Part shown: positions 15,624 through 51,126 of the stretch, piece after piece
Numbering within the stretch: the stretch's first letter is position 1
Layout: each line of letters opens with the position of its first letter
IMG/VR virus record: IMGVR_UViG_3300044630_007310
Coordinates: 1-57,638 of that record
Source of the DNA: a virus
DNA length: 57,638 nt
Reading direction: 5' to 3' (one strand)
Notes under the pieces: generated by a model
What the model saw: the letters and a program-made list of their open reading frames with translations, nothing else
Database searches by the model: none
Told to the model about the DNA's origin: nothing
Made by a program: the position numbers and the translations under genes

Positions 15624-15636
15624 AAATATACTTATT

Positions 15637-16503: not shown

Positions 16504-16506
16504 GTA

Positions 16507-17100: not shown

Positions 17101-17115
17101 GTTCTTTAATTATTT

Positions 17116-17232
17116 TTAATAATCGACAAATACTTTTTTGTATATTAAATAATTTACATTTATATGTTTTTGATTCATCTGACACATTACTTCTCTAGCA
17201 TGTCCACCGTATCCTATTAGAGCTTTTTTTAT
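17116..17232 (-). pseudogene. Vestigial NeuD-like N terminus (start ATG changed to ATA)
   Basis: Reading on the minus strand from 17232 gives ATA AAA AAA GCT, i.e. (I)KKALIGYGGHAREVMCQM and, further on, KKVFVDY before a TAA at 17116-17118; 38 codons in total. KxLIGxGGHAREV and the second-strand FVD match the NeuD Rossmann domain and parallel the intact gene downstream. There is no ATG at the proper place: the codon overlapping the aminotransferase stop is ATA in ATAA. No hexapeptide region follows. This is therefore a remnant of a duplicated or replaced NeuD-like gene. Confidence 0.7.
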
Positions 17233-17864: not shown

Positions 17865-17881
17865 AATTTATATAATATTTT

Positions 17882-18652: not shown

Positions 18653-18659
18653 ACATTTT

Positions 18660-19181: not shown

Positions 19182-19186
19182 AGTTT

Positions 19187-19957: not shown

Positions 19958-20583
19958 TGTTTATAAATATCAAATTTTGATAAGTCTGGATAAGGTAATT
20001 CCAAATCTTCATTAATCTTTTTTGTACCATCAGTGTTATAAAATTGACCCATTAGTAGTAGACCTCTCGCTGCTAATTCAGGCATCATATAAAAGTTCCA
20101 ACCTAACATATCGAAGTGGTCATCATGATAAGAACACTCTCTCCTACCTGAATATCTAGCTCTCTTAAACCAAAGATAGGCTTCGTAATTATCGGTTAGA
20201 ATAGCTCCTCCCTTTGATAACTTGAAGTGTTTATATGGTCCAGTGAATGATACACACATATGAGTTCCTGGTATATACATATCAGCAGTGAATCTTAAAG
20301 CAGAATCCCAGACATTAGAACCTTCTAGTTGGTAAGCTCCTTTAATTGTTTTCCCTTGAACTGGTTTAAATTTTACCTTAGCTCCTGCGTGTATAATTTC
20401 ACAAGGTACTGATGGATATGTTCTGGATGGAATTGTTAGTTCTTTACCCTTTACATTTTCATACATCATGGATAGAAAAAGAGCATTACTCTGATTATCT
20501 ACCGTTACAACATAAGGTGCTCCGGTATAATCAGATAAGGATTTTTCAAAATCTTCAGTTATTTTATAGACTCCATTTGCCAT
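19954..20583 (-). CDS. Compact DegT/DnrJ/EryC1-type PLP aminotransferase 2
   Basis: 209 aa. It has the same reduced layout as the protein at 17229: VTVDNQSNALFLSM, LTIPSRTYPSVP, VWDSALRF (Asp93), VSFTGPYKHFKLSKGG (probable PLP-lysine Lys118), and LGWNFYMMPELAARGLLLM. Identity to the first copy is moderate and spread along the length, so the pair is an old duplication rather than a recent one. It lacks the canonical central segment and C-terminal domain. The pair could form a heterodimer or act on two sugars. Confidence 0.74.
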   Translation of the reverse strand: MANGVYKITEDFEKSLSDYTGAPYVVTVDNQSNALFLSMMYENVKGKELTIPSRTYPSVPCEIIHAGAKVKFKPVQGKTIKGAYQLEGSNVWDSALRFTADMYIPGTHMCVSFTGPYKHFKLSKGGAILTDNYEAYLWFKRARYSGRRECSYHDDHFDMLGWNFYMMPELAARGLLLMGQFYNTDGTKKINEDLELPYPDLSKFDIYKQ

Positions 20584-20590
20584 ATTATTA

Positions 20591-21412
20591 TTATTTTTTA
20601 ATTCTAGTATAATTTTTTGGATAAGGAAGAGCCTGCCAGTTAATTATTCTATTTTCTCTATATTCCTTTTCAAATTTATATTTTTCTGATAAACCATCGA
20701 TGTCATATCCTCCCTTAACTGTCCCTAAATTATATGTATATGTTTTATAATATTGTGAAACACTATAATTGTTTTTTGAAGCAAATTTTTGTAAATCCCC
20801 ATCGTATACTCCATTTGGACATTCAATTAAGTATTTTTTAAATAAATCAGTATTAATAGTTAATAAATGTCCCCTACACGGAGGAACCTGTACGTCAGAT
20901 ATCTCCTTCGAAGAAAAATTCTTAAATGTAAAATCAGGATTTTCAATGAATCTAGATGAGCTATTCTTTAAATTGTAAATTGAATCTGGTAGGGAATCAT
21001 TCTTTGTTTGAAACCCGATTATTCCAATACCGTTATCTGTATTAAATTCATTGATGAAATCAGTAAGCCAGCAGTCCTTTGTTGAATCTGAAAGAAGACA
21101 ATCTCCATCACTTACGATAGTATATGAAGATATAGGAGTATCATACTTGGTGTGCTCAGATTGAAACATATGAGGTATAATCTTCGTTCCGTGATTATTT
21201 TCATAGAAATAAGCCGCATATATTAAATTATTTTCAAGTAGTTCATTTAATTGACTTCTGATTTTTTCTGAATTTTTACTATAGTTATCGCCTACTATTA
21301 TTCTAACAGGGTGCTTAGTATACTTATGTATAGCCGAAATAACATCAATTATAGTATCGTCAAAAAAATACGAAATCATGTAAATGTTTATAGGTTGTAG
21401 GTTTAAATTCAT
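20591..21412 (-). CDS. GT-A-type glycosyltransferase (family 2-like)
   Basis: 273 aa. The start, INIYMISYFFDDTIIDVISA and PVRIIVGDNYSKNS, is the usual nucleotide-sugar-binding beginning of GT2-like enzymes. SYTIVSDGDCLLSD contains a D-x-D-like metal motif (DGD). A later VPPCRGHLLTINTDLFKKY fits the acceptor-side loop. It probably transfers one sugar of the cassette product. It lies 7 nt before the aminotransferase and 9 nt after the DUF115-like gene. Confidence 0.72.
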   Translation of the reverse strand: MNLNLQPINIYMISYFFDDTIIDVISAIHKYTKHPVRIIVGDNYSKNSEKIRSQLNELLENNLIYAAYFYENNHGTKIIPHMFQSEHTKYDTPISSYTIVSDGDCLLSDSTKDCWLTDFINEFNTDNGIGIIGFQTKNDSLPDSIYNLKNSSSRFIENPDFTFKNFSSKEISDVQVPPCRGHLLTINTDLFKKYLIECPNGVYDGDLQKFASKNNYSVSQYYKTYTYNLGTVKGGYDIDGLSEKYKFEKEYRENRIINWQALPYPKNYTRIKK

Positions 21413-21421
21413 CTTAAATTT

Positions 21422-22105
21422 TTAGTTTATTTTATTTGATCCCTTAAATGAATTTCCTTCCAGATTATAATTAATAAAAGGATTTAGGGAATATATGTTA
21501 CATCCATATTTTTTACAAAGCTCTTTCTTTACATTGATGCTTTGATTTTCAATTACGCTTAACCATTTTTTATACTCTTCCCAATTTTTCCAAGGGGTCT
21601 CTGAAATGCTTTTATAATATCCATCGAAAACATGTTTATCATTAAGTAATCCACAGTCATGACCAACTATAATGATGTTTTTTGCTCCCATGTAAGCTGC
21701 CACATGTATTGCAGAAGTTATTGTAGAATAACTAACTATTATTTTATCAGAACCTAAGATAGAAAAATCAATTTGAGTGTGCCGATTTTCATTATGATCG
21801 AACACGTAAAAATTAAGGCCTTCATTGCCTTCTTGGTTCTTTTTCTTTTTTCCTTTTGTTATGTCTCCACTGTCCCATAAAGAACATATGACTTCAGCTC
21901 CAGATTGGATTGATTCTTTTATGTAAGATGCTTCCTTTCGAACTAGGTATTTACATTTAAACTTTCGATATACTTGATTGACTCCAATTGTTAGTTTTCC
22001 TTCAAAAAAAGAAGGATCAATATGATCAGATGATGGACCTGAGGCAATCACGTAAATATCGGAACCCCTATGTATATTCTTAAGATTAGAAATTGGACGT
22101 ATCAT
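21422..22105 (-). CDS. DUF115/Maf-like (MptE-like fold) protein 2
   Basis: 227 aa. IYVIASGPSSDHIDPSFF near the N terminus, then LTIGVNQVYRKFKCKYLV, and later TITSAIHVAAYMGAKNIIIV followed by GHDCG. The same order of motifs occurs in the proteins at 14287 and 25117. The family includes Maf-type factors linked to nonulosonic acid transfer, and GT29/GT42 sialyltransferases begin with a related GxGPS loop. It overlaps the large glycosyltransferase by 4 nt (ATGA). Confidence 0.62.
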   Translation of the reverse strand: MIRPISNLKNIHRGSDIYVIASGPSSDHIDPSFFEGKLTIGVNQVYRKFKCKYLVRKEASYIKESIQSGAEVICSLWDSGDITKGKKKKNQEGNEGLNFYVFDHNENRHTQIDFSILGSDKIIVSYSTITSAIHVAAYMGAKNIIIVGHDCGLLNDKHVFDGYYKSISETPWKNWEEYKKWLSVIENQSINVKKELCKKYGCNIYSLNPFINYNLEGNSFKGSNKIN

Positions 22106-24489
22106 ATTCCTAATATTTTTTTATTAGCATCTCTAACTATATTAGCAATAAATCGCTCCATTGCATGTGCCATTGTTCCATCAGGTAAATGACCTAATTC
22201 AAAATCATTTGAAGTAATTCTATTTTCTTTAAATACCTGTTCAAGAAGATCAAATCTCATCCAAAACATTGACCCTGCAAAAAATTTAAGAGTAGAATCA
22301 TTAACATTAAATCTCCTTCTTAAAATATTTATTTTCTCAGCGTTTACATTTTTTCCTGCTTTATTATCAAAGGATGACATCCCAATTAAATATCTTTTAT
22401 CTCCAATCATTCCAATTTCATCATTAGAGAAGTTATTTATTATTTTAGACTTTGCATCTATTATTAGTTTAGTATATAAATTTTTTCTCCAAGATTCTCC
22501 TTTTCTTTCATTTATCAATTTGCTCTTTTTAGAATGAATTTTAAGAATCCAATCGTACTTTAAATTGTTATTGAAAATCAAATTTAAGGATTCAAAAAAT
22601 CCTCCAAAATCCGAACCTCTATTTTCAACTTTACTGATTTGAGCAGATGGATAATCCCTTAATATTTCAAGTTCAATGCTTGGATTATCTATACATAAGC
22701 TGACATATAGATCAAATTCAAATCCTAATTGATTTAAATTATTTTTAATTTCTGGCCAGATATCGATATAATATATGTGGCACATTACTGCTATCTTATT
22801 ATCGCTTTTACTTTTAATTAAACTCAAATTTAGCAAATTAAGTTCTCTTTTCCAAAGATCCTCTATTTTTTTATATCTCGATTCAAAATCTGATTTAGAA
22901 GGATCCCATGGTTTAGAACCAACATAGTGTATAATTTTTATGTTCGAATTAAATTGATTAAATTTATTATCGGGAAAACATCTCTTTAAACAGTTATATT
23001 CTATTCCTAGCATTGGAATGCCTCCTGGAAAAAATGAATTCATTATTGTTTGATCGGCAAGTACCATATCCTTCATGGTTTCCGCGTGATCGATTAATTT
23101 TTTCTTATATTCTTTATCTGATATCGAATGACTCAGTAGCAAAAATCCTCCATTAAATGTGGAATATTCCCTTTTAATATATTCACCTGCATCCGGAGTA
23201 ACTACTATATCGTGATTCAATTTAAATATCTCGGAAATATCATTTAATACTAACATATCCGAATCTAGATATAATATTTTATCAAAATATTTAATATCCT
23301 CAAAAACTTCAAATGTAAAAAGAGAAGGTATCAATCTACTCTGAGCCTTCTTCATTTTTAAGAATTTGTTTATTAATTTTTGATATTGAGATACATTAAC
23401 TGGCTTGAAGTCTATATCTTCGTATATAGATTTTGCTCTATTCATATTTGAGATTGATATAGGAGAATATTCATTATGATAATATACGATAATCTTTCCT
23501 TTAAACCAAACATTATTTCGTAGGAAGCTAGATAACATTACCATTAACCCATCTATAAACTCATTATTACATATTGTACATAAGGCAATATTTAGATCAT
23601 TAATCTTTACTCCAGATTTAGGATTTAAGTTTCCAATATTAAGGTGCTTTTTAGGTTCTATGATTTTATTTGGAATGGAAGGTAAACTTCTTTTATATTC
23701 TCTAGGCTTATGTAAATCATCAATTACAGATTTATTTAAATGATTCCAATATGTATTAATTCTGGAATAATTTTGACCCCCAAGTTCGCCTGTGTTCAGT
23801 TTAACTGCATAGATTCCTTTTTGATATCTAATAAATTCAGTATATCTATGATTTGGAAAATTAGAAGAGCTAATTAAATACTGATTGCTGAATCTTTTTA
23901 TTCTGTCTAGGGTAATAACCTTAATTAGAGAATTAGATACCGCATCTGATTTAAATATATTATCCCCGAGTAGATTTTCCTCCAATATTGGTCTTATTTT
24001 CATATTGATTATATTTGAAGGAATATACATCAGTGAATGATCTATTAATTCGATAGATTCAGTATCTAGAGATGGAAATTTTTGAGAAGATATAGTAACA
24101 GATAGTTTGTTGTCATTTAAGAATGAGGAAATATTTTTTTGAAAAAATACATTTCTTGAAAAATATATGCTTCCTTGAGATTTAATATCGAATGCCTTTA
24201 GATAAAGATGTTCTAATAATGAATTTGAATTCCATCCCTTTTTAGAAATCCTATTTTTAATTAATATCAGATCATCATCAGGTATTTCCAATATTTCGAT
24301 CTTATCATATAAAAGATTTATATTTTTTATATTTTCAGATGTTAAGGGATTTGATTTTAAAGTCAATACTATAACAGTTCCTTCAAACCAAGTATTATGT
24401 TTAATAAAGGTTGATATTGCTAGCCTTGAGTTGGCAAAGCACATGTTGCTAGCTTCGGTTATTGCGCAAAGGTCGTTATATATTTTCAT
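22102..24489 (-). CDS. Three-domain glycosyltransferase: inactive GT8-like + GT8 + RgpF-like
   Basis: 795 aa. Domain 2 (about 295-545) is a GT8-type transferase: ALCTICNNEFIDGLMVML, YFDKILYLDSDMLVL (DxD near 408-410), FNGGFLLLS, ADQTIMNSFF and IIHYVGSKPW. Domain 1 (about 1-280) repeats the same opening (AISTFIKHNTWFEGTVIVLT) but reads IYFSRNVFF where the DxD should be, so it is probably inactive. Domain 3 (about 565-795; IAVMCHIYYIDIWPEI, VENRGSDFGGFFE, ILKIHSKKS) matches rhamnan synthesis protein F. The combination suggests building of a repeat unit on a polysaccharide or protein glycan. It overlaps NeuA by 14 nt. Confidence 0.82.
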   Translation of the reverse strand: MKIYNDLCAITEASNMCFANSRLAISTFIKHNTWFEGTVIVLTLKSNPLTSENIKNINLLYDKIEILEIPDDDLILIKNRISKKGWNSNSLLEHLYLKAFDIKSQGSIYFSRNVFFQKNISSFLNDNKLSVTISSQKFPSLDTESIELIDHSLMYIPSNIINMKIRPILEENLLGDNIFKSDAVSNSLIKVITLDRIKRFSNQYLISSSNFPNHRYTEFIRYQKGIYAVKLNTGELGGQNYSRINTYWNHLNKSVIDDLHKPREYKRSLPSIPNKIIEPKKHLNIGNLNPKSGVKINDLNIALCTICNNEFIDGLMVMLSSFLRNNVWFKGKIIVYYHNEYSPISISNMNRAKSIYEDIDFKPVNVSQYQKLINKFLKMKKAQSRLIPSLFTFEVFEDIKYFDKILYLDSDMLVLNDISEIFKLNHDIVVTPDAGEYIKREYSTFNGGFLLLSHSISDKEYKKKLIDHAETMKDMVLADQTIMNSFFPGGIPMLGIEYNCLKRCFPDNKFNQFNSNIKIIHYVGSKPWDPSKSDFESRYKKIEDLWKRELNLLNLSLIKSKSDNKIAVMCHIYYIDIWPEIKNNLNQLGFEFDLYVSLCIDNPSIELEILRDYPSAQISKVENRGSDFGGFFESLNLIFNNNLKYDWILKIHSKKSKLINERKGESWRKNLYTKLIIDAKSKIINNFSNDEIGMIGDKRYLIGMSSFDNKAGKNVNAEKINILRRRFNVNDSTLKFFAGSMFWMRFDLLEQVFKENRITSNDFELGHLPDGTMAHAMERFIANIVRDANKKILGI

Positions 24490-25120
24490 TTAATTTATCT
24501 AAATCTTTTTGAGTATCTACATCAATTGGAGAATTTACAGGAAAAAACATTGTTTGATTATTGTATAGATTGTTATTTAAACTATTTATCATACTTGAAT
24601 TGAATATGCCTATAAAGTGACATAATTCAAAACATTTAGGATAATCCTGTCTTCTATATAAATCATGCCAAAATAATTGAGATCCTCGACCGTCTTCCTC
24701 CTCTTTTAAAATTAGAAAAGGGGTATGTTCTATCTCCTTTTTGCATAAGAGACTCTTGGCCTCATTTAGATGATAAAAATCAAGAGCCCTCTCAATATCA
24801 GACCATTTTCTCTCCGGATAGGTTAAATATAGTAGGATAATTTCTTCACCCTGTTCTAATTTTCCAGTAAGTATGAGATAATTTGTTGCCCAATTTAGGG
24901 TAAATTTCATTGAGGCCTCATCGGTTGCGGTCTCTTCTAATCTTTCAATTGATTGGAATTTATATTCCCGAGCTAATTTATGAATTTCAGGATCATCTGT
25001 TAATACTATTACGTGATCTTTATATTCATTAGGTATTGTATTAGCAGTGTGTCTAAATAGGGTTCTATTTTTACCAGGAAGTCCTTTAGATCCCATTCTA
25101 GCTGGTATTATTATTTTCAT
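24476..25120 (-). CDS. neuA: NeuA-like CMP-nonulosonate cytidylyltransferase
   Basis: 214 aa. NeuA activates sialic or related acids as CMP-sugars. The nucleotide loop is IPARMGSKGLPGKN (residues about 5-18), followed by VIVLTDDPEI, ILLYLTYPER and the C-terminal SPIDVDTQKDLDKL, all typical of the family. It is slightly shorter than the usual 220-230 aa. With NeuB and NeuD in the same strand block, the chain synthase, acetylation, CMP activation is complete except for the enzyme that supplies the hexose precursor, which is not visible in this window. Confidence 0.85.
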   Translation of the reverse strand: MKIIIPARMGSKGLPGKNRTLFRHTANTIPNEYKDHVIVLTDDPEIHKLAREYKFQSIERLEETATDEASMKFTLNWATNYLILTGKLEQGEEIILLYLTYPERKWSDIERALDFYHLNEAKSLLCKKEIEHTPFLILKEEEDGRGSQLFWHDLYRRQDYPKCFELCHFIGIFNSSMINSLNNNLYNNQTMFFPVNSPIDVDTQKDLDKLNENI

Positions 25121-25731
25121 AGTTTCATAAATTCCTCCAAGGTTATTTTTGGCACAGTATCAATCTGACTAGCGCTGCTTAAATTATAGAGAGGAACCCC
25201 TCTCTTTTCAAGTTCATGTTTAATTATAGAATATCCACCCCTAAGATCTTTAAGATATCCCATTCTGGCAAGAGAATGCTGACCGTCCTTAGGGGAATAG
25301 AAGTGCCCTTCTGTAAAATCTACCCCTATCATTCCAATCGCCCGGGCTCCCATTTTATATGCAATATTAATCGCAGTGTAAGGAGAATTTAAGAAATGAT
25401 CTACTTTAGACGGATCATCCAGATTACTGGCTCCTTTTTTTCCAAGATCGAAATGTATTATTTTTGGATTTCTCCAACCGCTAACACAAGTCAATAGTCC
25501 CTTGACTTCAGCCTCATTAATTAATTTCTTCCGATTATCATTAAATCGGTTAGGATGATCAGTAACTAGAAGATAGGTAGGATTAAATAGTGCAGGTACA
25601 TCATTGACTCCAATAGTAATAAAATTCTTGTGATGAGGCTCAAATTGCTTCAGGGAAATTCCGCATCCGCATACAATTATCTTTTCATCCTTATGAATAT
25701 TATGAAACTCTGTGAATTTTTTAGGTAGCAT
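25117..25731 (-). CDS. DUF115/Maf-like (MptE-like fold) protein 3
   Basis: 204 aa, first gene of the minus-strand cassette. Motifs in order: IIVCGCGISLKQFEP, ITIGVNDVPALFNPTYLLVTDHP, and SPYTAINIAYKMGARAIGMI followed by GVDFTEGHF. These correspond one by one to the proteins at 14287 and 21422. It overlaps NeuA by 4 nt, so synthesis of the CMP-sugar and this candidate transferase are coupled. Function as a nonulosonic acid transferase is inferred from the Maf connection and context. Confidence 0.62.
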   Translation of the reverse strand: MLPKKFTEFHNIHKDEKIIVCGCGISLKQFEPHHKNFITIGVNDVPALFNPTYLLVTDHPNRFNDNRKKLINEAEVKGLLTCVSGWRNPKIIHFDLGKKGASNLDDPSKVDHFLNSPYTAINIAYKMGARAIGMIGVDFTEGHFYSPKDGQHSLARMGYLKDLRGGYSIIKHELEKRGVPLYNLSSASQIDTVPKITLEEFMKL

Positions 25732-26773: not shown

Positions 26774-26812
26774 AAGAGTCCTATATAAATAATAAAAAAA
26801 TCAAGGACTCTT
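26774..26812. repeat. 9-bp inverted repeat flanking the promoter of the protease-scaffold gene
   Basis: AAGAGTCCT at 26774-26782 and AGGACTCTT at 26804-26812 are perfect reverse complements, 21 bp apart. The pair brackets the ATAAATAA octamer and its right arm runs into the TTG start. It could be an operator or, if transcription starts upstream, a translation-controlling hairpin. Confidence 0.6.
26785..26792 (+). promoter_or_regulatory. Candidate late promoter for protease-scaffold and capsid genes
   Basis: TATATAAATAAT contains a full TATAAATA, identical to the T4 late promoter consensus. The octamer ATAAATAA ends 18 nt before the TTG start at 26811. The 18-nt string ATAAATAATAAAAAAATC here is repeated exactly before the gene at 44757. 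Confidence 0.6.
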
Positions 26813-28784
26813 GAGTAATCTATCAAACAATTCCTCATATAACAACAGTGATGTTGTTTTAATCGTTGAAAACGTAGGTGAGGATCTAATGGTAAGAAAC
26901 AATGCCCCTAATAATATTGTATTAGAAGGTGTTTGTGCCGTTTTTGGAGCAAAGAATAATAATAACCGAGTTTATGAGAAAGACGAATATCTTCCTCATT
27001 TAGGTTATTTAAAAGATAAAATTTCTAAGAAGCAATTAGTTGGAGACCTAGATCACCCGCCTCATTTTGATGTTACTCTTAAGAGTGCATCTCACATAAT
27101 TGAGGGATTAGATTACGATGGTGGCAATAAAGTAAACATCAGATTAAGAATCCTAGAAAATACTCCAAATGGAAAAATTGCAAAGGCTCTCTTAGAAGGT
27201 GGTGTTGGACTTTCTATTTCTTCTAGAGCAGCAGGTCAGGTATTAAATGAGGGTAAAGTTAAATTACACCGAATTTTTACATATGATTTAGTTGGAGAAC
27301 CTGGATTTACTGAAGCTATTCTTAAAGAAACAGTAAGCGAATCTCTTAAAACTAACTTCAAAATGTTAACTGAAAGTTACGATCATCTTAAATCAGAATC
27401 TTTTGTAAATAAGAACGGATTAGTTGATATTTCTGAAAGTTTTAGTTTTGGTGAAAATGTATCAATCTATAAAATAAATAATCCTATAGAATCAGTTTTA
27501 GAGAATTCTATACAAACACAAAAAAATAATAACACAATGGCCGATCAGTTTGTAACAGCGGATTCAATGAATAAATATTCGAATCTCGTAAAAGAACAAA
27601 TTAACAGTATTAAGTCTGAATTGAAGAATCAAAAAAAGATTTTCGAATCTAATGGCGTTTCTGGTAAAGACGTAGACGTTGCTAAATTAGCAGGTTTCGT
27701 TAATTATTTAGCGGAACACTTAGAAGGAGTAATTAACTATTCAGACTATTTATCTGAAATGGTTAATAAGTCAGTTAAGTATACTGAGCATATAGCTGAG
27801 ACTACTAATAACGCAATCGAATACAGCAGCTATGTTGGAGAAAAATTAAATAAGAGCATTCAACATCAAGATTATATCGCAGAGAAATTGGATCAAACAA
27901 TTAATTATACTGAATATATCAAGGAGAATTTAAATAGTTCAATTAACTATCAAAACTATCTTGCTGAAGAAGTAGATAAAGGAATTCAATACACTGAGTA
28001 TGTTGCTGAAGGAGCTAATAAAGGAATTGAATTTGCTGAATATCTTTCTGAGAACATCAATATTAACAGAGACTATATGCAATATGTTGCTGAAAAATCA
28101 GCTCAGGGAATCGGCTACACTGAGTACTTAGCAGAACAATTAAATAGTGGTTTAGATGTTGCTAAAAGAAATGTATTAGGCGGAGCTTCTAAATTGAACG
28201 AGTCTCAATCAGTAGATCAATTAATTGGAAAAGTTGATGAAGTTATTGCTAATGTTAATTCAACTTCTTCTAAAAAAGTATTAGAATCAAGATATCCTTT
28301 CTTAAAGGTTATGAATGAGAATAACAGAGAAAGATTCTATAAATTAGATACTGCTACTAAACAATCAGTGGTTGAAACTTTAGGAGCTGCAATTTGGTTT
28401 ACCGAAGCAGATGTTTTAGGAATAATCGAATCAGTAGTAGATAATAAAATGCAACACATCCCTGCTCATGTTAGATTTATGCCAGACGAATATAAACCAG
28501 TTTGGAATTTAATGAATGAGTCAGAGAAAAATAGAATTCATGCTAAATCTCAACTTTATACATTGAATACTTCTTATCAAGTTAGAGCCTTTTGGGACGA
28601 ACAAGATTTAAGAGGAATTAATGAAAGAGTTGAATTAGAGAAAAATAATGCTAAAATGCATAAGCTTAACGAAAGCCAAGGTACAGAAGGTATGATATCC
28701 GTAGATCGGATAGTTGAGCATCAAAGAGGATATACCTCTAATTACCTAGATACTTTAATGCGCGGAGCACAGTATCGCAAATAA
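26811..28784 (+). CDS. Prohead protease (gp21-like) fused to a 14-residue-repeat scaffold
   Basis: 657 aa, TTG start supported by the 18-nt promoter spacing. Residues 30-190 are a gp21/U9-type serine protease: LVGDLDHPPHF (His82) and GGVGLSISSRAAG (Ser137/138), then VKLHRIFTYDLVGEPGF. The rest is helical. Residues 306-446 hold ten tandem 14-residue repeats of form x-I-x-Y-x-x-Y-[LIV]-[AS]-E-x-x-N-x, an unbroken coiled-coil-like rod suited to a scaffold core. In T4 these jobs belong to separate gp21 and gp22. An in-frame ATG at 27537 after an A-rich run could give a scaffold-only product of 415 aa. The major capsid gene follows after 18 nt. Confidence 0.85.
   Translation: MSNLSNNSSYNNSDVVLIVENVGEDLMVRNNAPNNIVLEGVCAVFGAKNNNNRVYEKDEYLPHLGYLKDKISKKQLVGDLDHPPHFDVTLKSASHIIEGLDYDGGNKVNIRLRILENTPNGKIAKALLEGGVGLSISSRAAGQVLNEGKVKLHRIFTYDLVGEPGFTEAILKETVSESLKTNFKMLTESYDHLKSESFVNKNGLVDISESFSFGENVSIYKINNPIESVLENSIQTQKNNNTMADQFVTADSMNKYSNLVKEQINSIKSELKNQKKIFESNGVSGKDVDVAKLAGFVNYLAEHLEGVINYSDYLSEMVNKSVKYTEHIAETTNNAIEYSSYVGEKLNKSIQHQDYIAEKLDQTINYTEYIKENLNSSINYQNYLAEEVDKGIQYTEYVAEGANKGIEFAEYLSENININRDYMQYVAEKSAQGIGYTEYLAEQLNSGLDVAKRNVLGGASKLNESQSVDQLIGKVDEVIANVNSTSSKKVLESRYPFLKVMNENNRERFYKLDTATKQSVVETLGAAIWFTEADVLGIIESVVDNKMQHIPAHVRFMPDEYKPVWNLMNESEKNRIHAKSQLYTLNTSYQVRAFWDEQDLRGINERVELEKNNAKMHKLNESQGTEGMISVDRIVEHQRGYTSNYLDTLMRGAQYRK
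27726..28148 (+). repeat. Ten tandem 42-bp coding repeats (14 residues each)
   Basis: Residues 306-446 of the scaffold region. Examples are SIQHQDYIAEKLDQ, TINYTEYIKENLNS and GIQYTEYVAEGANK. Period 14 equals about four helical turns, with Tyr at positions 4 and 7 and Glu at position 10. The copies differ clearly at DNA level, so the array is old and selected for protein structure. Confidence 0.85.
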
Positions 28785-28802: not shown

Positions 28803-30458
28803 ATGGCACGTACAAAAATTTTTAGACGCTCAAACGACAATCGTTTGACAAACACGTGGAAGCCTATTTTAGAAGGGTATGGTGCAAATGTTGACAAGAC
28901 ACCTTGGTTAGCTGAATATGCTCACAATCACGCTATTTTCGATAATAGCAATCCGATTTTCGAGCAAGCAGGTCCAGGTCAATTCTTACAAACACCAGGA
29001 GCTCTTCCAGGAATGGGTAACCCAGTAGCCCCTTTAGCCGGGCAAACACCTTTTTCAAGTGGAATCAAAGGATCTTATTCTGATTCAGGATCAGGGGATA
29101 AATTCCCTTCATTGCTTCCTGTAGCGATCCAAGTTGCAGCTAAAACTATCGGTTTCGACCTAGTTCCAGTTGTTCCTATGGATTCTCCAGTAGGATTCCT
29201 TCCTTACTTAGATTATCTTTACACAGGCGGTCGCTTAGATTCAGAATTTGAACCTTATATGGTTAAAATTCAAGGAATTACTGAGACTGACTTAGTTGGT
29301 GGTACTTTCCCTGGTACCAATGCAGTTGCTTTTACAGTTGCTCCAGCTAGAACTTATACCTTTGTAGGATTCTCAAGAGTAGATGGTCACTTGATTTTAA
29401 AAGTTGAAGATGATGCATCTAACACTGTTGCAGCTGACTTGAACGGAAAAATAATTTCTGCTGTTGGTGGTACTGCTTGTTCTGGTGGTGCACCTGCTAG
29501 AACTATCGCTTCTGCTGATGTTCAATTAGTATCTGCTTTGGAAAACCATATTTCTGGTTTCTCTGGAACTAGCGATGCTGCTTACGCAGGTACTGCGTTC
29601 AGCGGTCCTTACCTTCCTGGAACAGGAAACGTAAATGGATCAATGGATAGAAATGCTGGTGAAAATTCTAGATTCCGTCAAATGGGTCTTAGAATGTTTA
29701 CTAAATTCATCGAGGCTGAGACAGATCAGGTTGCTATCTCTGCAACAGTTGAGCAAATCCAAGACTTGAACCGAGTTTGGAATTATGACGTAATCTCTAT
29801 GTTAGAGAACGTTGCAGTTAATGATTTAGCTCAAACAATCAATAAGAGATTGATCGACAGAATCTTTACTTTAGCTGATACTCACAATACTACAGTTAAC
29901 TTGGTTGAAGGTTCTGGAATCACAACTCTTGATCTTACTGCTGGTACTGGTGGATTCGAAAACGTTTCTACATTACAGAGAAGATTAGTAACTAAAATTC
30001 TTGAATTATCTAACTTGATTTACCACAGAGGTAGATTTGGTGCAGGTACATTCATGATCACTAACGGACGCGTAGCTTCTGCTCTTGCTGATGTTGCTGG
30101 TTACTCAATCGCACAAGTTCCAACTGATATGGCTGGAGTTGCTGGTAACCTTTACCCTGCTGGTAAAGTTTACGGAGTACAAGTATACGTAGATCCTAAC
30201 TTAAGATTTGGTGATACTAGAATTTGTATCGGTCGTAAAGGTGCTGATGAAGAGCCTGGAGTTAAATTCATGCCTTACATCATGGCAGAAAGTCTTCAGA
30301 CTATTGCTGAAGGTACTTTCTCACCAAAAATCGGTATGAAATCTCGTTACGCTATCACAGAAGCTGGATGGCACCCTGAAACTCAATATGTAAATATGGA
30401 GGTAACAGGTGACTTAGCAGTTCTTACTGGTGGTGTTGCACCTTCAAACACTCCTTAA
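28803..30458 (+). CDS. Major capsid protein, gp23-like
   Basis: 551 aa. FPSLLPVAIQVAAKTIGFD followed by LVPVVPMDSPVGFLPYLDY (about 104-145) matches the conserved gp23 segment. The HK97-like body follows, with WNYDVISMLENVAVNDLAQ and NRVWNYD near 320. Three possible prohead protease sites lie near the N terminus: ILE at 24, LAE at 38 and IFE at 54. Codon choice is richer in C-ending and GGT/GCT codons than in neighbours, as expected for the most abundant protein. A strong terminator follows. Confidence 0.95.
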   Translation: MARTKIFRRSNDNRLTNTWKPILEGYGANVDKTPWLAEYAHNHAIFDNSNPIFEQAGPGQFLQTPGALPGMGNPVAPLAGQTPFSSGIKGSYSDSGSGDKFPSLLPVAIQVAAKTIGFDLVPVVPMDSPVGFLPYLDYLYTGGRLDSEFEPYMVKIQGITETDLVGGTFPGTNAVAFTVAPARTYTFVGFSRVDGHLILKVEDDASNTVAADLNGKIISAVGGTACSGGAPARTIASADVQLVSALENHISGFSGTSDAAYAGTAFSGPYLPGTGNVNGSMDRNAGENSRFRQMGLRMFTKFIEAETDQVAISATVEQIQDLNRVWNYDVISMLENVAVNDLAQTINKRLIDRIFTLADTHNTTVNLVEGSGITTLDLTAGTGGFENVSTLQRRLVTKILELSNLIYHRGRFGAGTFMITNGRVASALADVAGYSIAQVPTDMAGVAGNLYPAGKVYGVQVYVDPNLRFGDTRICIGRKGADEEPGVKFMPYIMAESLQTIAEGTFSPKIGMKSRYAITEAGWHPETQYVNMEVTGDLAVLTGGVAPSNTP

Positions 30459-34763: not shown

Positions 34764-35198
34764 CTATGCAACCGAGTAAGATTTCGATACTTTATCGAAT
34801 TTTATTTTATTAGATCTCTTCAATTCACTAAGATACTGTCTTACCGTATTTGGTGAATATTTAGTGTCCGGGCCCTTAAGTACCGCTTCGTGAATGTTAG
34901 AAAAAGAACTTATTTCTTCAGATTTTATAACTCTCATTATCTTTTTCTTGGTATCCTTTGCCTGGTATATTGTATTTTTTCCAGACTGGTCTAATTGTTT
35001 TTTATTTAGATCAATTGATATTTTAGGAGTAGGTTCAGGTTCCATATTAGTCAATTGATAATCATATTTCATCAAGACTGATAGGGCATCCTTAATCTCT
35101 CTAATTTTTTCTAGATCTTTAACCAATCGGTTCTCTTGTTGATCTAAAGAATTAATTGACACTGAAATCGTGGTAGTCCTCTTTGATTTGTTTTTCAT
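34764..35198 (-). CDS. Hypothetical protein with coiled coil and C-terminal winged-helix-like region
   Basis: 144 aa. Residues about 20-50 are a charged helix (ENRLVKDLEKIREIKDALSV). The C-terminal part (SSFSNIHEAVLKG and SPNTVRQYLSELKRSNKIKF) reads as a winged helix-turn-helix whose recognition helix would be TVRQYLSELKRS. It may regulate transcription; the target is unknown. It follows the 65-aa gene after 2 nt. Confidence 0.55.
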   Translation of the reverse strand: MKNKSKRTTTISVSINSLDQQENRLVKDLEKIREIKDALSVLMKYDYQLTNMEPEPTPKISIDLNKKQLDQSGKNTIYQAKDTKKKIMRVIKSEEISSFSNIHEAVLKGPDTKYSPNTVRQYLSELKRSNKIKFDKVSKSYSVA

Positions 35199-35200: not shown

Positions 35201-35398
35201 TTATACTAGATTAAAAAATTTACGTTTTTTAGATTTTTCGCTGGCACGTTCAAATTTATTAGAACACGATGTTAAAATAGATTTTACTAATTTAATAGTA
35301 TCGTCTTCTTCCTGTTTGTTTAAATGATCGATATAGGTCCGGCAGACTATTATCATGCCTTCAACCTCATCGCTTTTTAATTTAACTTTAACTTCCAT
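35201..35398 (-). CDS. Small hypothetical protein, 65 aa
   Basis: Basic C terminus (ERASEKSKKRKFFNLV) and helical body. No family is recognised. It is two bases from the winged-helix gene, so they form a two-gene unit divergent from the cyclase gene. Confidence 0.5.
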   Translation of the reverse strand: MEVKVKLKSDEVEGMIIVCRTYIDHLNKQEEDDTIKLVKSILTSCSNKFERASEKSKKRKFFNLV

Positions 35399-35456
35399 GA
35401 TTATATTATACTAAATACTCATATAAAATTAAGGAAGGCTAAATAAATATTATTAT

Positions 35457-36164
35457 ATGAGCAATTATATTAATTCGTATGCAATTTGGGAGAATTTAAA
35501 TTCTCTAGACAGTTTTGAAGAAAAGGATCAAGTGATACTTTTTACTGATGTTGAATCCAGTTCTAAATTATGGAAGCTACATGAGATGGGAATGTTTAAT
35601 GCGTTAAAGGAACATGAAGATAGAATCTCAACGATCATAAAAAAGTACAGAGGAGAAATAATTAAAACTATTGGGGATAGTTATATGTTGGGCTTTGATG
35701 GAAAAGATTCTTTACTGGATTCAATCAAATTTGCGCATGAAATACAATTAGATCTTCGCAAAAAACCAATTAAAATCAAAGGTAAATCACTTAAGATTAG
35801 ATTAGGAATACACAAGGGACCTCTTTATAAAAAGAAGGTAATGATTCAAGGTAAAAAGTTAATTGATTACTTTGGAAATACAGTAAATACTGCTTCTAGG
35901 ATGGAGTCAACAGTTGGGGAATCTGGAGATATTGCATTTAGTTGGACCGGGGATCTAGATTCTGCAGAAGAAGGTAGAATAAAGGATTGGATAGAAAAGA
36001 GCGGATTAAAGGTAGAAATAATCGATTATAAGCATAGATGTTATTCTGGAAAAAGAAAAAGATCAGGTAGATTATTATCTGAGTTACAGGTCCATACATG
36101 TGAACCTATTACTCAATTAAAAGGAGTGGCCCCGGTTACTGCCTTTAAATTAAAGGTAAAATAG
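35457..36164 (+). CDS. Class III nucleotidyl (probably adenylyl) cyclase with capsid-targeting-like leader
   Basis: 235 aa. The cyclase homology domain (about 25-190) has both metal-binding Asp: Asp31 in LFTDVESSS and Asp74 in IKTIGDSYML. Lys70 and Asp137 (LIDYFGNT) fit the pair that selects adenine in class III adenylyl cyclases. Asn144 and Arg148 (NTVNTASRM) fit the transition-state residues. All catalytic residues are in one chain, so a homodimer would have two active sites making cAMP. The leader MSNYINSYAIWENLNSL is nearly the same as that of the lysozyme. There are no membrane, sensor or signal-peptide regions. It is a single plus-strand gene ending 2 nt from the convergent topoisomerase gene. 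Enzyme class is confident; the product nucleotide and packaging are inferred. Confidence 0.9.
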   Translation: MSNYINSYAIWENLNSLDSFEEKDQVILFTDVESSSKLWKLHEMGMFNALKEHEDRISTIIKKYRGEIIKTIGDSYMLGFDGKDSLLDSIKFAHEIQLDLRKKPIKIKGKSLKIRLGIHKGPLYKKKVMIQGKKLIDYFGNTVNTASRMESTVGESGDIAFSWTGDLDSAEEGRIKDWIEKSGLKVEIIDYKHRCYSGKRKRSGRLLSELQVHTCEPITQLKGVAPVTAFKLKVK

Positions 36165-36166: not shown

Positions 36167-37510
36167 TTAAGAGATCGCCTTTTTTAGTTCCTTTAAATCT
36201 TCTTTATACATATCAATAGGATCAAGTTTTTTAATTTTTTCTAGTTCTGCTTCCTTCTGAGCCTTATTTGCTAGTAATTCTTCATATTTCTCTTTAGTTA
36301 AGGTATGAATTTGCATTGACAAAAGATATGTGTATGATCCATTAACTTGACTAAATTTTTCTTTATCTAATTTAGCAATAACTTCATCTTTTGGGACATT
36401 GTTAATATTTAATCTTTTTTCAATTATCATTTTAATAAAACGAGCCCGATTGGAAAGAATATCTAACTCTTCTGTCAATTTATTAATCAAATAGTCCTTT
36501 CTTTTTTGATAGAAATTCAATCTAAAGCCAACAAAGTACTTTATAATTTCAGTTGCGCTATTGAATATTTTTAATTTTCCAAATTCATCTAAGACAGTAA
36601 AGTTTTCGCTCTGCTTTTCTTCCATTTTTAGAAAATTATCTAACTTATTTCTTCTTTGAAGATCAGAAAGAGTAGATCTATTTAATTTTAGAAGATAATT
36701 GATGTTGGATTTACAATTATTGTCATATGATACAATGTTTCGATCATCTTCTAATTTATTTAGATGTGCGTCATACTTTTCATAGGTAACTGAAGGCGGC
36801 AGCTCTTTTATTTGAACAGTTGAAGTATTTTTAATCTCATAAATTCCTCTAAATATCCAAGAGTTCTGAGAATCTGGCGAAGCTTCACATGTTCCATTGA
36901 AACCATTAATCCATGGAACAGGATCACTGTATTTTTTACCAGCTAATTCATTTACGCAGCACTCTATGAGATCTAAAGGATTTCTATTTAAGATGTTGGT
37001 AGCAAACCCAACGGCAATCCCTGATGAACCATTGAGTAATACTGTAGGCAATATTGGAAGAAAGTATTCAGGTTCAATCTGGGACCCCTCTTCCAATCTA
37101 GGGCTTAATAATTCAAAGTCCTTATATAGTAATCTAAAATTTTGATGTAATTTAGTAGAAACATATCTAGGCGCCCCGGCTTCTGGAGATCTAAGGGAAC
37201 CAAACTGGCCTATTTCTTCTAGAAGTGGCATAGAATTTTTAAACTTCTGTGCCATACCAATTATAGCACTATTTAAAGATCCATCTCCATGATGGTAATG
37301 GGCATCTGCTGCAATTCTACCAGTTAACTGAAATACTTTATATGGTTTTTCACTTCCGTTCTTCCAAATCTTATCAGCTACGTATATTACCTTTCTTTGA
37401 GTTGGTTTTAATCCATCGATCACAGATGGTATAGCTCGGTTCTCAATAACGTATTTTGCGTATTCTTTATAGTCTTGATCTAAATATTCTGTTATTGTAG
37501 ATATTTTCAT
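36167..37510 (-). CDS. Type II DNA topoisomerase medium subunit (gp52-like)
   Basis: 447 aa. This is the DNA-cleaving subunit. The catalytic tyrosine is Tyr116 in GAPRYVSTKL; upstream DGLKPTQRKVIY and HYHHGDGSLNSAI match GyrA/ParC/gp52. A long coiled-coil tower follows (about 325-447), without the C-terminal DNA-wrapping domain of GyrA. It pairs with the ATPase/TOPRIM subunit at 38980-40866, from which it is separated by five small genes on the same strand. It relieves torsion during replication. Confidence 0.93.
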   Translation of the reverse strand: MKISTITEYLDQDYKEYAKYVIENRAIPSVIDGLKPTQRKVIYVADKIWKNGSEKPYKVFQLTGRIAADAHYHHGDGSLNSAIIGMAQKFKNSMPLLEEIGQFGSLRSPEAGAPRYVSTKLHQNFRLLYKDFELLSPRLEEGSQIEPEYFLPILPTVLLNGSSGIAVGFATNILNRNPLDLIECCVNELAGKKYSDPVPWINGFNGTCEASPDSQNSWIFRGIYEIKNTSTVQIKELPPSVTYEKYDAHLNKLEDDRNIVSYDNNCKSNINYLLKLNRSTLSDLQRRNKLDNFLKMEEKQSENFTVLDEFGKLKIFNSATEIIKYFVGFRLNFYQKRKDYLINKLTEELDILSNRARFIKMIIEKRLNINNVPKDEVIAKLDKEKFSQVNGSYTYLLSMQIHTLTKEKYEELLANKAQKEAELEKIKKLDPIDMYKEDLKELKKAIS

Positions 37511-37980: not shown

Positions 37981-38267
37981 TGTGGATTTTTAGTTTTAGG
38001 TGAACATCCTAACCAAAATTGAAAACTGAATGCATCTTTAAGTTTACCCTTAATCTTGTGTTTGGTCATAGTTGACTCGAATATTTCTTGTAGAACAGAT
38101 TGTTCGCATTCATGCTCCATGAAAGGTATAACCTTTTGGCCAAATTCATTAGTTTTAGCATTTTTTAATAATTCACTAAAGTCTGCAGGCGGTTCGCTAG
38201 CAGCAAATGATAATTGATAAAGCTCAGTTAGGATCTGATCATGCTTTTCCGCTTTTGTTTTTCTCAT
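37977..38267 (-). CDS. Hypothetical protein, 96 aa
   Basis: Helical, with MEHECEQSVLQEIFESTM and ending WLGCSPKTKNPQ. No family is recognised. It overlaps the SLOG gene upstream by 29 nt and the 49-aa gene downstream by 4 nt. Confidence 0.55.
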   Translation of the reverse strand: MRKTKAEKHDQILTELYQLSFAASEPPADFSELLKNAKTNEFGQKVIPFMEHECEQSVLQEIFESTMTKHKIKGKLKDAFSFQFWLGCSPKTKNPQ

Positions 38268-38610
38268 AATTTATTATTTTTATTTTTAAACCTTTTTTCT
38301 CAGCAATATTGATCATATGTTCAGTTCCTCTACTAGTACCATCCCAGAAAGCAATAAGTAAATCTGCATAGTCTGCCATTTCAGAATTTCTCTTATAGCC
38401 AGCTGCCTTTCCGTATTTATCCCAATCTGCTGGAAATATTTTACAATTATGTCCATTTTCCAAAGCATATTCTTCTCCTAAAGAATCGGCTCCTTTTGCT
38501 CGACCACTAACAATTTCAATATTATCCAAATTAGATAGAATCTGATCACATGATTCCTTTAATAAGGAATAATCACTGAAATCTCTGCCGCCTGCAATTA
38601 TTACTTTCAT
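38239..38610 (-). CDS. SLOG-family protein, YspA/DUF2493-like
   Basis: 123 aa. VIIAGGRDFSDY at the N terminus, EIVSGRAKGADSLGEEYA, FPADWDKYGKAAGYKRN and LIAFWDGTSRGTEHMI are the successive nucleotide-pocket motifs of the YspA branch of the SLOG fold, which binds nucleotides or nucleotide-sugar derivatives and includes signalling sensors and lysine-decarboxylase-like enzymes. It is a complete single-domain member. The ligand and partner in a phage are unknown. It overlaps the 128-aa gene by 4 nt. Confidence 0.82.
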   Translation of the reverse strand: MKVIIAGGRDFSDYSLLKESCDQILSNLDNIEIVSGRAKGADSLGEEYALENGHNCKIFPADWDKYGKAAGYKRNSEMADYADLLIAFWDGTSRGTEHMINIAEKKGLKIKIINYEKNKSGKA

Positions 38611-47150: not shown

Positions 47151-49358
47151 ATGAATTTAAAAAGGGCAATTCTAAATTATTCTGATTGGAATAGAATAGT
47201 TGAATCTAATCTCAATTTTGATCAAAATTCCTTTTTAAAATTTTCTATCCTAGAACAAGACGAACAGAGATCCTTAATACCAAATTGGCTAGAATGGACT
47301 AGAGATGTCTTATGGTCAGGAACAGATCAATCAGCAAACGTAATTTTTATTAACTCCCAACCTGAATTAAAAATATCCGGAGATCAATCTGGAACAGAAG
47401 GAGTAAATCTGATACAGATTTCATTTAAAGGAGCAAAGTGTACTAAAAACGGTCAAACTAAATTTATAGGGTCAACTGGGCCTTTTCTACTCTATGCTAG
47501 ATCAGACGAGCCTTGGTTTTTATATGAAAGTTTAGAAGGAGCCCAAACTAAATCAACATCGCAAGGTAGATTTTCAGCTAAGTGGGGAGGTTTCATATTT
47601 AATGAAATTAAAAAGACAAGTGGACAGACCCTAGCTACAGTCAATCAACAGGGCCTACCTGCTCAAATAACTAATGATGTTGTTAACTGGGCAAAAGGTA
47701 ATTTTCTTCAACTTCTCTGGAACAGTAAAGCAAGAATAAGTTGGACATATATTAGCTTATACAATCTAGGGATAATAGATCTTGCAAAAGAGGATATAAA
47801 TAAGGCTATAAAGTTTCCTAAAAATATTACTATTAAAGATCCTGGGATAAAATCTAGTTTTTATGATATTCAAAAGAATATAGAATCTTCGATGAAAACC
47901 AACGAATCTATGTATTATATTAAGCCATTTGCTATTTTTGAACAGGATGAATATTATAAACAAACAGTTGATTCTGAAGGAAACGAGGTCAGTCTTGTAA
48001 AATATAACGTCATAGATGAAATAGTAATAAGAGAAAGCGCATCTGAAGAAGAAAAAAAGGCAGCCTGGGATAGATGTGAAAAATATAATGAAGAAGGACA
48101 TCGAGTTGTTCCTAAATCTTTATTTACAAATAATCCGGATGATCTTGGAATTAGATTAGTATTGGAGAGAGAATTTGATGAGGTAGTAATAAAATTAGAT
48201 AAGAAAACCGGCAAAATATCAACTTGGATTAACAAATTAAAAGCAAAAACTAAGGCGGCCGGTAGAACTATATTGATGCCAAAATCTGATAAAACATATA
48301 AAGCATGGGAAGCAATTGCTCTTGCTGAATCTGATTTATTGAGAACCCTTAAGAAAAAACTTCCTAAAAAGTTTTATAATAAGAAGGATGTTATGAGCGA
48401 GGAGGGTCTAGACGCAGTTATTAAATTATGGAAGGAAAATAAAATATCTGAATCGGATTACAGAAGATTTAGAGCAATTTTATATGAATGGGATGAGGAA
48501 ACTAAAAATAAAGAAAAAGAGGCCTCGAAATCACTTTTAGATAAATTATGGGACGATGCAAAATGGTTTGGAGAAGAGGCAAAGAAAGGATTTGACGATG
48601 CTTATAATACTGGAAAGAAAATTGTAACTAACGTTAAAGACGGGGTAATCAGTGCAGGAGAAGCAACGGCAAAGGCAATTAGCGACGGATGGAATGTATT
48701 GCAATTGGATCCTAATAATACATTCCATCAAAAAGAAATACAGGCAGCTTTTGATAAAATAGGAGAGATTAAAGATGATGTAGTTGAATGGGGAAAAGAG
48801 GAAGGAATAAATTTTATTGAAAATACACTAACTCCTTATGGCATTTATATATCTTTAGACAATTTAAATGTTGAAGTAGTTGAAATTAACAATCCTGCTC
48901 TTTCTAAAATTAAGGATGCAGCCCCTACGATAAAAGCCGATGTTAATGGTACTATTTCGATTATAACTCAAATTAAAGGAGGTAAAACAAGTGGAGTAGA
49001 TATAGAAGTAAATGGAGATTTACAATTAGAAGGAGATGTAGATTTAGATAAAAAGGCCTTAACTATTAAATTTAAATCCTTATCATTAGAAACCATCGGA
49101 GAATCTGATTTATCTGGGCTATTCAGTGATAATTCGCTTTCAAATTTTTTACCTTATTTTAAAATTTATAATAAAGAGAACGGAAAATCAACCGCTAAAA
49201 TTTGGTGGGAAAATACATTTACTGGAAATGAGATTTATAATTGGGAATTTAATTTACAGACGCCATTAGAAAAATCAATAGTAGCAGAATTGAATAAATA
49301 TAAAGGATATAGTCTAGATAAGTATTTACAGGGAGTGCCTGAATTTACAAATAAATAA
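47151..49358 (+). CDS. Large protein with capsid-targeting-like leader, 735 aa
   Basis: The start is set at ATG 47151 (MNLKRAILNYSDWNRIVES), after the stop of the previous gene. An upstream in-frame ATG at 47064 would run through that gene's Cys cluster and hide the leader. YSDW and I-V-E fit the leader pattern; SILEQ offers a second possible cut near residue 34. The body has a soluble beta-rich first part, a charged helical middle (about 380-540) and a beta-rich C-terminal domain with DVNGTISIITQIKGG. No enzyme motif is recognised. Probably a virion, perhaps ejected, protein. Confidence 0.6.
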   Translation: MNLKRAILNYSDWNRIVESNLNFDQNSFLKFSILEQDEQRSLIPNWLEWTRDVLWSGTDQSANVIFINSQPELKISGDQSGTEGVNLIQISFKGAKCTKNGQTKFIGSTGPFLLYARSDEPWFLYESLEGAQTKSTSQGRFSAKWGGFIFNEIKKTSGQTLATVNQQGLPAQITNDVVNWAKGNFLQLLWNSKARISWTYISLYNLGIIDLAKEDINKAIKFPKNITIKDPGIKSSFYDIQKNIESSMKTNESMYYIKPFAIFEQDEYYKQTVDSEGNEVSLVKYNVIDEIVIRESASEEEKKAAWDRCEKYNEEGHRVVPKSLFTNNPDDLGIRLVLEREFDEVVIKLDKKTGKISTWINKLKAKTKAAGRTILMPKSDKTYKAWEAIALAESDLLRTLKKKLPKKFYNKKDVMSEEGLDAVIKLWKENKISESDYRRFRAILYEWDEETKNKEKEASKSLLDKLWDDAKWFGEEAKKGFDDAYNTGKKIVTNVKDGVISAGEATAKAISDGWNVLQLDPNNTFHQKEIQAAFDKIGEIKDDVVEWGKEEGINFIENTLTPYGIYISLDNLNVEVVEINNPALSKIKDAAPTIKADVNGTISIITQIKGGKTSGVDIEVNGDLQLEGDVDLDKKALTIKFKSLSLETIGESDLSGLFSDNSLSNFLPYFKIYNKENGKSTAKIWWENTFTGNEIYNWEFNLQTPLEKSIVAELNKYKGYSLDKYLQGVPEFTNK

Positions 49359-49363: not shown

Positions 49364-50269
49364 ATGAAGGTAATTAAGAACTATAGAGACTGGAGTAAGG
49401 TATTTGAGCAAGGATATAATGATTTAGATCCTCTAGCTGGAGATGTTCAATATACTCCATCTCAATGGCACGATACTTCTACTAATGCTCCTGAAGGAGG
49501 ACCTGGTCTAACCGGAGACTATGATTACTATTCTGCAATTAAATCAGAAAATCCACCGGCTGAAGATATACCAACTGATGATAAGTGGATTGCTGAAAAA
49601 TTTAAAAAGCTATTAAGTAGCGAAGTTGCTCTTAAATCACTAAAGAAAAGAATTAATCAAGTAATAGACTCAGAAGTAAATAAAAAATACAACACAAGTC
49701 CAGACAAGGCAAAGATTGATCCAATTAATATTCAGACAGCAATTCAGGATTACTTTAAAAATGATCCTGATGGCGGAAGATACCCAATTGCTATTGCCGG
49801 GGGATTAGGAGACAGTATTAAGATTTCCCATTGGTTAGGTAAAGCTGCAGTTGCTAAAATTATTCCAAGCGAGTCAAATCCTCTGGTTGGTACTATAACT
49901 GGAACAATTACTCTTTCAATAAATATAACAAATTCAGAGTTAAAAAAGATTAACCCTAACGGAATTTCTATTCCAATATTAATAAATATATCAATTGATT
50001 ACAATATTTCTGAGGAGCAATTGAGTAAACAAAATTTATTAATGACATGGACTATTAAAAGTATTGGAGTTTCTGGATCTACTGAAATTAAAGAAGGTCC
50101 TTTTGTTAATTCACCTATTGCTCTAAGTATTAATAACGGAAAAGCTAATTTAAAAGTAAAAATTAATAATACTGCGATACCAATATTAAAGGATAAGGAT
50201 CTAAAAATAAGCAGCTACGTACCTCAAAAAACTGGAGTAGTAGACGTTGATATTACCCAAATTGCATAA
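49364..50269 (+). CDS. Virion candidate with capsid-targeting-like leader, paralogue A
   Basis: 301 aa. Leader MKVIKNYRDWSKVFEQ (YRDW, then V-F-E). A disordered acidic segment follows to about residue 75, then a helix with KRINQVID at 95-102, then a beta-rich C-terminal domain (TITGTITLSINITNSELKKI). The KR-[IV]-NQ-x-ID helix recurs at 54-61 of the next gene, with a similar beta-rich domain after it, so the two are paralogues. Starts 5 nt after the 735-aa gene. No function is recognised. Confidence 0.58.
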   Translation: MKVIKNYRDWSKVFEQGYNDLDPLAGDVQYTPSQWHDTSTNAPEGGPGLTGDYDYYSAIKSENPPAEDIPTDDKWIAEKFKKLLSSEVALKSLKKRINQVIDSEVNKKYNTSPDKAKIDPINIQTAIQDYFKNDPDGGRYPIAIAGGLGDSIKISHWLGKAAVAKIIPSESNPLVGTITGTITLSINITNSELKKINPNGISIPILINISIDYNISEEQLSKQNLLMTWTIKSIGVSGSTEIKEGPFVNSPIALSINNGKANLKVKINNTAIPILKDKDLKISSYVPQKTGVVDVDITQIA

Positions 50270-50283: not shown

Positions 50284-51126
50284 ATGATATTAAATTTTAA
50301 AAGATGGAAGGAAGTTCAGGGAAAAGTCTCGGAATCTAATTATGCTTCGATCTTTGAGGAAGAGCAAGGCGGATCAGGATCCGATATGAATGTATTATTA
50401 ATTAAATTATTAGGAAACCCGGCAACTAGGGGAACCGTTATTAAAAGAGTTAATCAGGCTATTGATAAAAATTTAATCAATAATACCAATGTTAATCCGT
50501 CAACAATTACTTTAGATTTAAATAAAATGGAGCCAGCGGCTAGAGTATTTTTTGATGCCGATCTTCCACCTAAAATCAAGGTTAAAATTTCAAGTTTAGC
50601 TGCGACAGAAGGTGAAAATAAGGGTGCAGGAATCTTAAATGTATTTAATACTAAAAAGAAGCTATCTGAGGGATGGGTTGGACTTGATGTTAATTATCTA
50701 GTTGATATAGAAATCGATGAGGTTATTTTAAATGCGATGTTTGAAAACCCAGAAGATCGATCAATTAAAAATATATCAGGGGTTGGAATATTAAGAGGAA
50801 AATTGGTTCAATCTGGTGAAATGAATGAAGCGGGAAAACCTAAATGGATTAACAGGTGGGAATTAATTGATTTGGGAATCAATTTTGTAAAGCCACTAGA
50901 TGAATATAAATTTACATGTAAATCTAGACCCGCTACTGAATTAATAGGTAAAAACCTATCTAGCGGAGCAGCTATAGATGCTGAATCAATAATTAATGTT
51001 AATGAATTTGTTTTAAATAAAGGAGAAAAAAAAATATATGGGCCATCTTACTTTATGACATCTGAATTATTTAAGGGAACTGAGCTTAAGATTGAAGTAG
51101 ATATAAACGATCTTCTTGAAAAATAA
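50284..51126 (+). CDS. Virion candidate with capsid-targeting-like leader, paralogue B
   Basis: 280 aa. Leader MILNFKRWKEVQGKVSES with FKRW, and a likely prohead-protease site at SIFEEE (I-F-E, residues 23-25). A helix with KRVNQAID at 54-61 and a beta-rich domain follow, as in the preceding gene. Last gene of the plus-strand block; its stop is 3 nt from the convergent gene at 51130. Confidence 0.58.
   Translation: MILNFKRWKEVQGKVSESNYASIFEEEQGGSGSDMNVLLIKLLGNPATRGTVIKRVNQAIDKNLINNTNVNPSTITLDLNKMEPAARVFFDADLPPKIKVKISSLAATEGENKGAGILNVFNTKKKLSEGWVGLDVNYLVDIEIDEVILNAMFENPEDRSIKNISGVGILRGKLVQSGEMNEAGKPKWINRWELIDLGINFVKPLDEYKFTCKSRPATELIGKNLSSGAAIDAESIINVNEFVLNKGEKKIYGPSYFMTSELFKGTELKIEVDINDLLEK

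Follow-up and report, generated by a model that had tools for sequence, protein, structure and literature searches.

We found that a 57,638-nucleotide IMG/VR virus record, analysed here over its whole length and called the window, encodes a class III nucleotidyl cyclase that is probably an internal head protein of the T4 style. The record comes from a T4-like phage of bacteria, and its capsid protein and head-maturation protease match PHROG head families. The gene (35457-36164, plus strand, 235 aa) is predicted to specify a stand-alone enzyme of the adenylyl cyclase type, and the protein starts with a short leader that holds a conserved candidate cleavage motif. From these features we infer packaging, cleavage, injection, the use of ATP and an effect on the host, in the following course. 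The cyclase would be made late in infection, and the leader, formed by its first 12 residues, would pull it into the prohead core. The prohead protease of the phage would then cut between E12 and N13 (IWE/N; throughout, the slash marks the cut), and the mature enzyme would be packed and later ejected alongside the DNA into the host cell. Once inside, it would turn host ATP into cAMP before any phage gene expression.

The enzyme class was assigned from domain, residues and predicted fold. The Pfam Guanylate_cyc domain covers residues 24-162 (E 5.5e-25; 88.5 bits against a curated cut-off of 21.9). The protein contains D31, K70, D74, D137, N144 and R148, all invariant or nearly so among ten phage cyclases, and these residues comprise the metal-binding Asp pair (D31/D74), the Asn/Arg pair (N144/R148) and the adenine-selecting Lys/Asp (K70 and D137) that is common to trypanosomal adenylyl cyclases. 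An AlphaFold2 model built from nine sequences (mean pLDDT 73) showed a folded catalytic domain and disordered residues 1-16. A Foldseek search with this model returned several solved class III cyclases (E ~1e-11), and the nearest solved structures by sequence were trypanosomal adenylyl cyclases. No sensor, membrane or signal domain was found in the 235 residues. These results confirm the preliminary description, which had recognized a class III cyclase with all six catalytic residues and no domain of those kinds. Viral cyclases as such had been recorded before: a viral structure library includes proteins with a cyclase domain from giant viruses and from uncultured phages.

We compared the first 20 residues of the cyclase with all N termini of the window and with 3045 internal control windows. 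The results showed an ungapped BLOSUM62 score of 51 between the cyclase and a protein with Phage_lysozyme (E 3.6e-21) and LysM (E 2.1e-15) domains (4014-4925, minus strand), compared with a control maximum of 36, and the two formed the top-scoring pair among all N-terminus pairs in the window. The lysozyme leader occupies codons 1-16 (4878-4925, minus strand), ends in INE/S and reads MSSYIKKYSVWNRINE/SA. On the cyclase, codons 1-12 (MSNYINSYAIWE; 35457-35492, plus strand) form a putative capsid-targeting propeptide, as suggested by the likeness to the lysozyme leader, by conservation among phage cyclases and by disorder in the model, and I10-W11-E12/N13 (35484-35495, plus strand) is the putative prohead-protease site. 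A cut at the position equivalent to the lysozyme INE/S was rejected for the cyclases because Ser stands there and Glu12 is the conserved residue. The match with the lysozyme that had been described earlier is therefore real, but its length of 17 residues is not retained, the likely propeptide being the 12 residues of MSNYINSYAIWE/N; the leader is indeed shared by the two genes but is not limited to them.

Related leaders were present on several other genes of the window and in dozens of gene families in relatives. Sequence and leader comparison identified them in the window at 47151-49358 (MNLKRAILNYSDWNRIVE/SN) and, with further support from the capsid-motif count described below, at 49364-50269 (MKVIKNYRDWSKVFE/QG), while sequence identified a third at 50284-51126 (MILNFKRWKEVQGKVSE/SN). 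Close to its N terminus, the product of the gene at 5221-7047 has a site of the capsid type (SIFE/A), according to its sequence and the same count. All four genes lie on the plus strand and have no assigned function.

Using the cyclase, the capsid protein and the topoisomerase subunit as queries, we obtained 155 loci, and further scans added cyclases. The distinct phage cyclases numbered 12. Nine belong to the window's group and share 58-100% identity with the window's enzyme, and three form a second group, which includes the 635-kb phage LR745206 and is ~36% identical to the first. The leader was kept in 12/12, and each had a site of the form [ILV][FWN]E/[NSA] with Glu at residue 11-14 (IWE/N, IWE/S, LFE/S, IFE/A or INE/A). 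By chance, this pattern occurs in 1.4% of internal 20-mers and about 4% of N-terminal 20-mers. The leader was thus retained while the catalytic domain diverged to ~36% identity. When 50 phage records, about a dozen of them chosen because a cyclase gene was present, were searched at the Pfam level, no leaderless class III cyclase was found; 14 of the 50 contained class III cyclases, each at the site of a known leader-bearing enzyme or a near copy of one. Relatives that keep the enzyme and lack the leader, which the preliminary description would have counted against packaging, were therefore not seen in either set. The phage cyclases may share one origin (support of only 54/0 for the joint-origin branch in the tree), and because a single origin is possible, the 12 enzymes are not independent. 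No single bacterial group lay near the phage enzymes in the tree that would point to a host source, and most bacterial homologues were long proteins, their cyclase domain being preceded by a median of 427 residues. One cyclase pair gave a dN of 0.066 and a dS of 1.2, indicating strong purifying selection, with four of the five pairs compared being saturated. In the 635-kb phage, a neighbour of the cyclase (L003, 6564-7265, minus strand) also has a leader-like start (MKYLHKYNKYTYIKEDKS).

The major capsid protein (28803-30458, plus strand; phrog_138 major head protein, E 3.7e-35) served as an independent yardstick for the specificity of the protease. It is ~30-38% identical to its counterparts in Prevotella Lak phages, other huge uncultured phages and Tenacibaculum phages. 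In T4, gp21 cuts the first 65 residues off the capsid protein gp23 (PMC9958956). The window protein carries the site I52-F53-E54/Q55 (28956-28967, plus strand), which is conserved as [ILV][FN]E[QNSA] and falls in the region where gp23 matures. Near residue 54, the sequences shown from a 59-sequence alignment of the clade read LFE/Q, IFE/N, VFE/S, INE/S or LNE/A. The IWE/N of the cyclase fits this motif except for Trp in the middle place, a residue absent there from the aligned capsid-protein sites. The gene adjoining the capsid gene encodes a head maturation protease, probably as a fusion with the scaffold (26811-28784, plus strand; phrog_207, E 5.8e-31, residues 30-256 of 657), and the annotation of the corresponding protein in Tenacibaculum phage PTm1 names both a scaffolding protein and a protease. 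The protease of the window is a candidate for cutting off the leaders.

We then searched the N-terminal 30 residues of 751 gene clusters, excluding those of the capsid protein and the cyclase, for the motif [ILV][FN]E[QNSA], which had been drawn from the capsid protein without reference to the cyclase. The motif was found in 47.8 cluster-equivalents at N termini, compared with 10.6 expected from internal windows, a 4.5-fold enrichment. A more demanding leader motif, with aromatic-x2-aromatic ahead of the site, was picked after examples had been seen and gave 23.7 compared with 1.4, an enrichment of about 16-fold. This N-terminal enrichment indicates that many unrelated genes share a leader with a probable head-protease site, and the site held in the shared leaders of these phages is probably that of the head protease. 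The recognizable domains among the motif-bearing genes included phage tail lysozyme, ATP-grasp enzyme, AAA ATPases, a putative metallopeptidase and HNH endonuclease, and some of these domain-bearing members may be there by chance. Leader-bearing ATP-grasp proteins (YheCD/RimK-like) occurred at L123 (10166-11383) and in relatives, in 8/12 members of the cluster, and are possibly injected protein-modifying enzymes. When two T4 segments were scanned with a looser form of the motif, the hits were IPII, IPIII, gp2 and about six further ORFs that are not known as packaged, and T4 Alt had no clear site of this form; for this reason the motif by itself was rejected as proof of packaging.

These counts also bear on the idea that the likeness of the leaders is accidental and the cyclase a stray host gene, which we regard as scarcely credible. 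Short motifs do recur, and the site turns up in N-terminal and internal 20-mers at the rates given above. However, the lysozyme score lies well beyond the control maximum, the leader is conserved in all the phage cyclases, the motif is enriched over unrelated gene clusters, and the dN and dS of the one pair speak against a stray gene. Chance resemblance of the leaders is ruled out by the internal-window controls and the enrichment counts.

The genomic setting of the cyclase was examined in the window and in relatives. The gene lies between minus-strand genes (34764-35198 and 35201-35398 on one side, the topoisomerase subunit at 36167-37510 on the other), so the earlier view of it as a single-gene island is correct. 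The slot between the capsid and topoisomerase genes is variable and holds other leader-bearing genes in relatives (e.g. L009, L022, L027 and L038); at L009 (7158-7871) and L011 (9965-10678), another gene with a leader (MNYINNFTTWYMMNEAAS...), for which Pfam gave no match, takes the place of the cyclase. The cyclase was found at several different genomic places across phages and therefore behaves as movable cargo. A few genes away in the window, a small protein of the SLOG family (YAcAr; Pfam E 3.8e-17) is encoded at 38239-38610; proteins of this kind have been linked to nucleotide signalling. The window also contains a minus-strand block (14287-25731) of genes judged by eye to be of the sugar or surface-glycan type (nucleotide-sugar, acetyltransferase-like and sialic-acid-synthase-like), a block of a size unusual for a phage.

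Just upstream of the cyclase lies a weak T4-late-promoter-like motif, TAAATAAAT (35440-35448, plus strand). Motifs of this kind, chosen after looking, were commoner before plus-strand genes (11/26 compared with 5/37, p about 0.01), and a late promoter upstream of the cyclase is suggestive only. Late expression would suit packaging, and it would equally suit a leader that is a tag specific to phages and serves another purpose, such as direction to an assembly site, a membrane or a replication compartment, with the cyclase acting late inside the cell and not being delivered by the virion. The support for packaging of the cyclase is all at the level of sequence, which leaves room for such a tag. 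We nevertheless consider it rather unlikely, given that the site in the leader resembles the capsid-protein site and the leader itself resembles those of T4 internal proteins. The preliminary description's proposal of head packaging gains strong sequence support from the 12/12 leaders, the capsid-like motif and the layout shared with IPII and IPIII, and the earlier interpretation as a whole is upheld in part.

In one lineage (L159, at 537-1496 on the minus strand, L222, L223 and L229), a CapV-like patatin directly follows the cyclase, starting 2 bases past the cyclase stop, and PADLOC classes it as a CBASS phospholipase effector (E 9.6e-68). This arrangement raises the idea of a phage-borne signalling pair, a Pycsar or CBASS system turned to phage use, in which the cyclase product would activate a phospholipase that attacks membranes and is directed at competitors or at the host. 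We hold this to be very improbable, because the window and most cyclase-bearing phages have no patatin, and in G026, G035 and LR745206 patatins occur with the cyclase either missing or far away. A fixed link between the two genes was rejected, since each is also found without the other. A broader proposal is that an injected, ready-made cyclic-nucleotide synthase would set off a second-messenger pulse before phage gene expression, and that some lineages would in addition switch on the CapV-like phospholipase; in this full form it is unlikely.

If the packaging reading is true, an enzyme for second-messenger synthesis enters the host along with the phage DNA. This would be a kind of early host takeover without a published case in the open-licence papers searched. 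No relevant report of a packaged phage cyclase or of a phage-encoded adenylyl cyclase was found in that literature, nor was virion proteomics of a relative such as Tenacibaculum phage PTm1. If the reading is true, a simple sequence rule, namely a leader plus a capsid-type site, would predict injected proteins from genomes, and it would serve many uncultured T4-like and giant phages, making their injected set testable.

The catalytic part of the protein resembles that of known class III adenylyl cyclases, the nearest solved being Trypanosoma brucei GRESAG 4.1/4.3 and the mycobacterial Ma1120. They share the catalytic domain, the metal-binding Asp pair, the adenine-selecting Lys/Asp and the Asn/Arg pair. 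The bacterial class III relatives are mostly large sensor proteins, whereas the window cyclase carries a phage leader and lacks a sensor.

Pycsar PycC has the same class III fold, and the PADLOC PycC models match the window cyclase weakly (E 4.5e-9). This match, together with the fact that few residues set substrate choice in the class III fold, favours the view that the enzyme is packaged and injected but makes mainly cGMP, cCMP or cUMP instead of cAMP. Such a product appears distinctly unlikely to us, as K70 and D137 form the adenine-selecting pair of trypanosomal adenylyl cyclases and the pyrimidine-selecting residues of PycC do not fit as a set. Those residues are Y50, D94 and R97 in clade B and F60, K104 and F109 in clade D (PMC11224242), compared with K70 and S75 of the window cyclase at the KxxGD(x) positions, a comparison by motif position and not by structure alignment. 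The neighbours of the window cyclase, which, unlike PycC, is phage-encoded, are the topoisomerase subunit and two small genes without assigned function, and none is a cyclic-nucleotide-gated effector. Membership of Pycsar is not supported on these two grounds, the differing base-selecting residues and the lack of an adjoining effector gene.

A further comparison is with proteins that giant phages, for example SPN3US, eject. Two reports (PMC5694885, PMC7411985) describe SPN3US head proteins whose N-terminal propeptides are cut at gp21-like motifs and which are ejected into the cell. The feature in common would be an N-terminal propeptide with a gp21-like site, which in the cyclase is putative. 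The SPN3US propeptides are mostly longer than 100 residues, unlike the cyclase leader, and the passages that describe them mention no cyclase.

T4 itself is among the closest known parallels. Its internal proteins and Alt carry propeptides of 10-20 residues that direct them to the prohead core and that gp21 then cuts off, and these proteins reach the host together with the DNA. No nucleotide cyclase is annotated among the T4 cargo proteins (IPI, IPII, IPIII and Alt), the leader sequence itself differs between T4 and the window, and packaging is shown in T4, whereas for the window cyclase it is predicted from sequence. T4 gp2 (L314, 21062-21886), a protector of injected DNA ends, starts MAIFQIINESTPQ and has an INE/S-type site near its N terminus. 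IPII and IPIII begin MKTYQEFIAE/A and IPI begins MKTFKEFTSTTTPVSTITE/A, the same layout as in the cyclase leader: like the cyclase, the three internal proteins have a short, aromatic-containing N-terminal leader that ends near an [IL]xE/A-type site at residue 10-19. As in T4, a head-maturation protease of the T4 type is encoded in the same genome.
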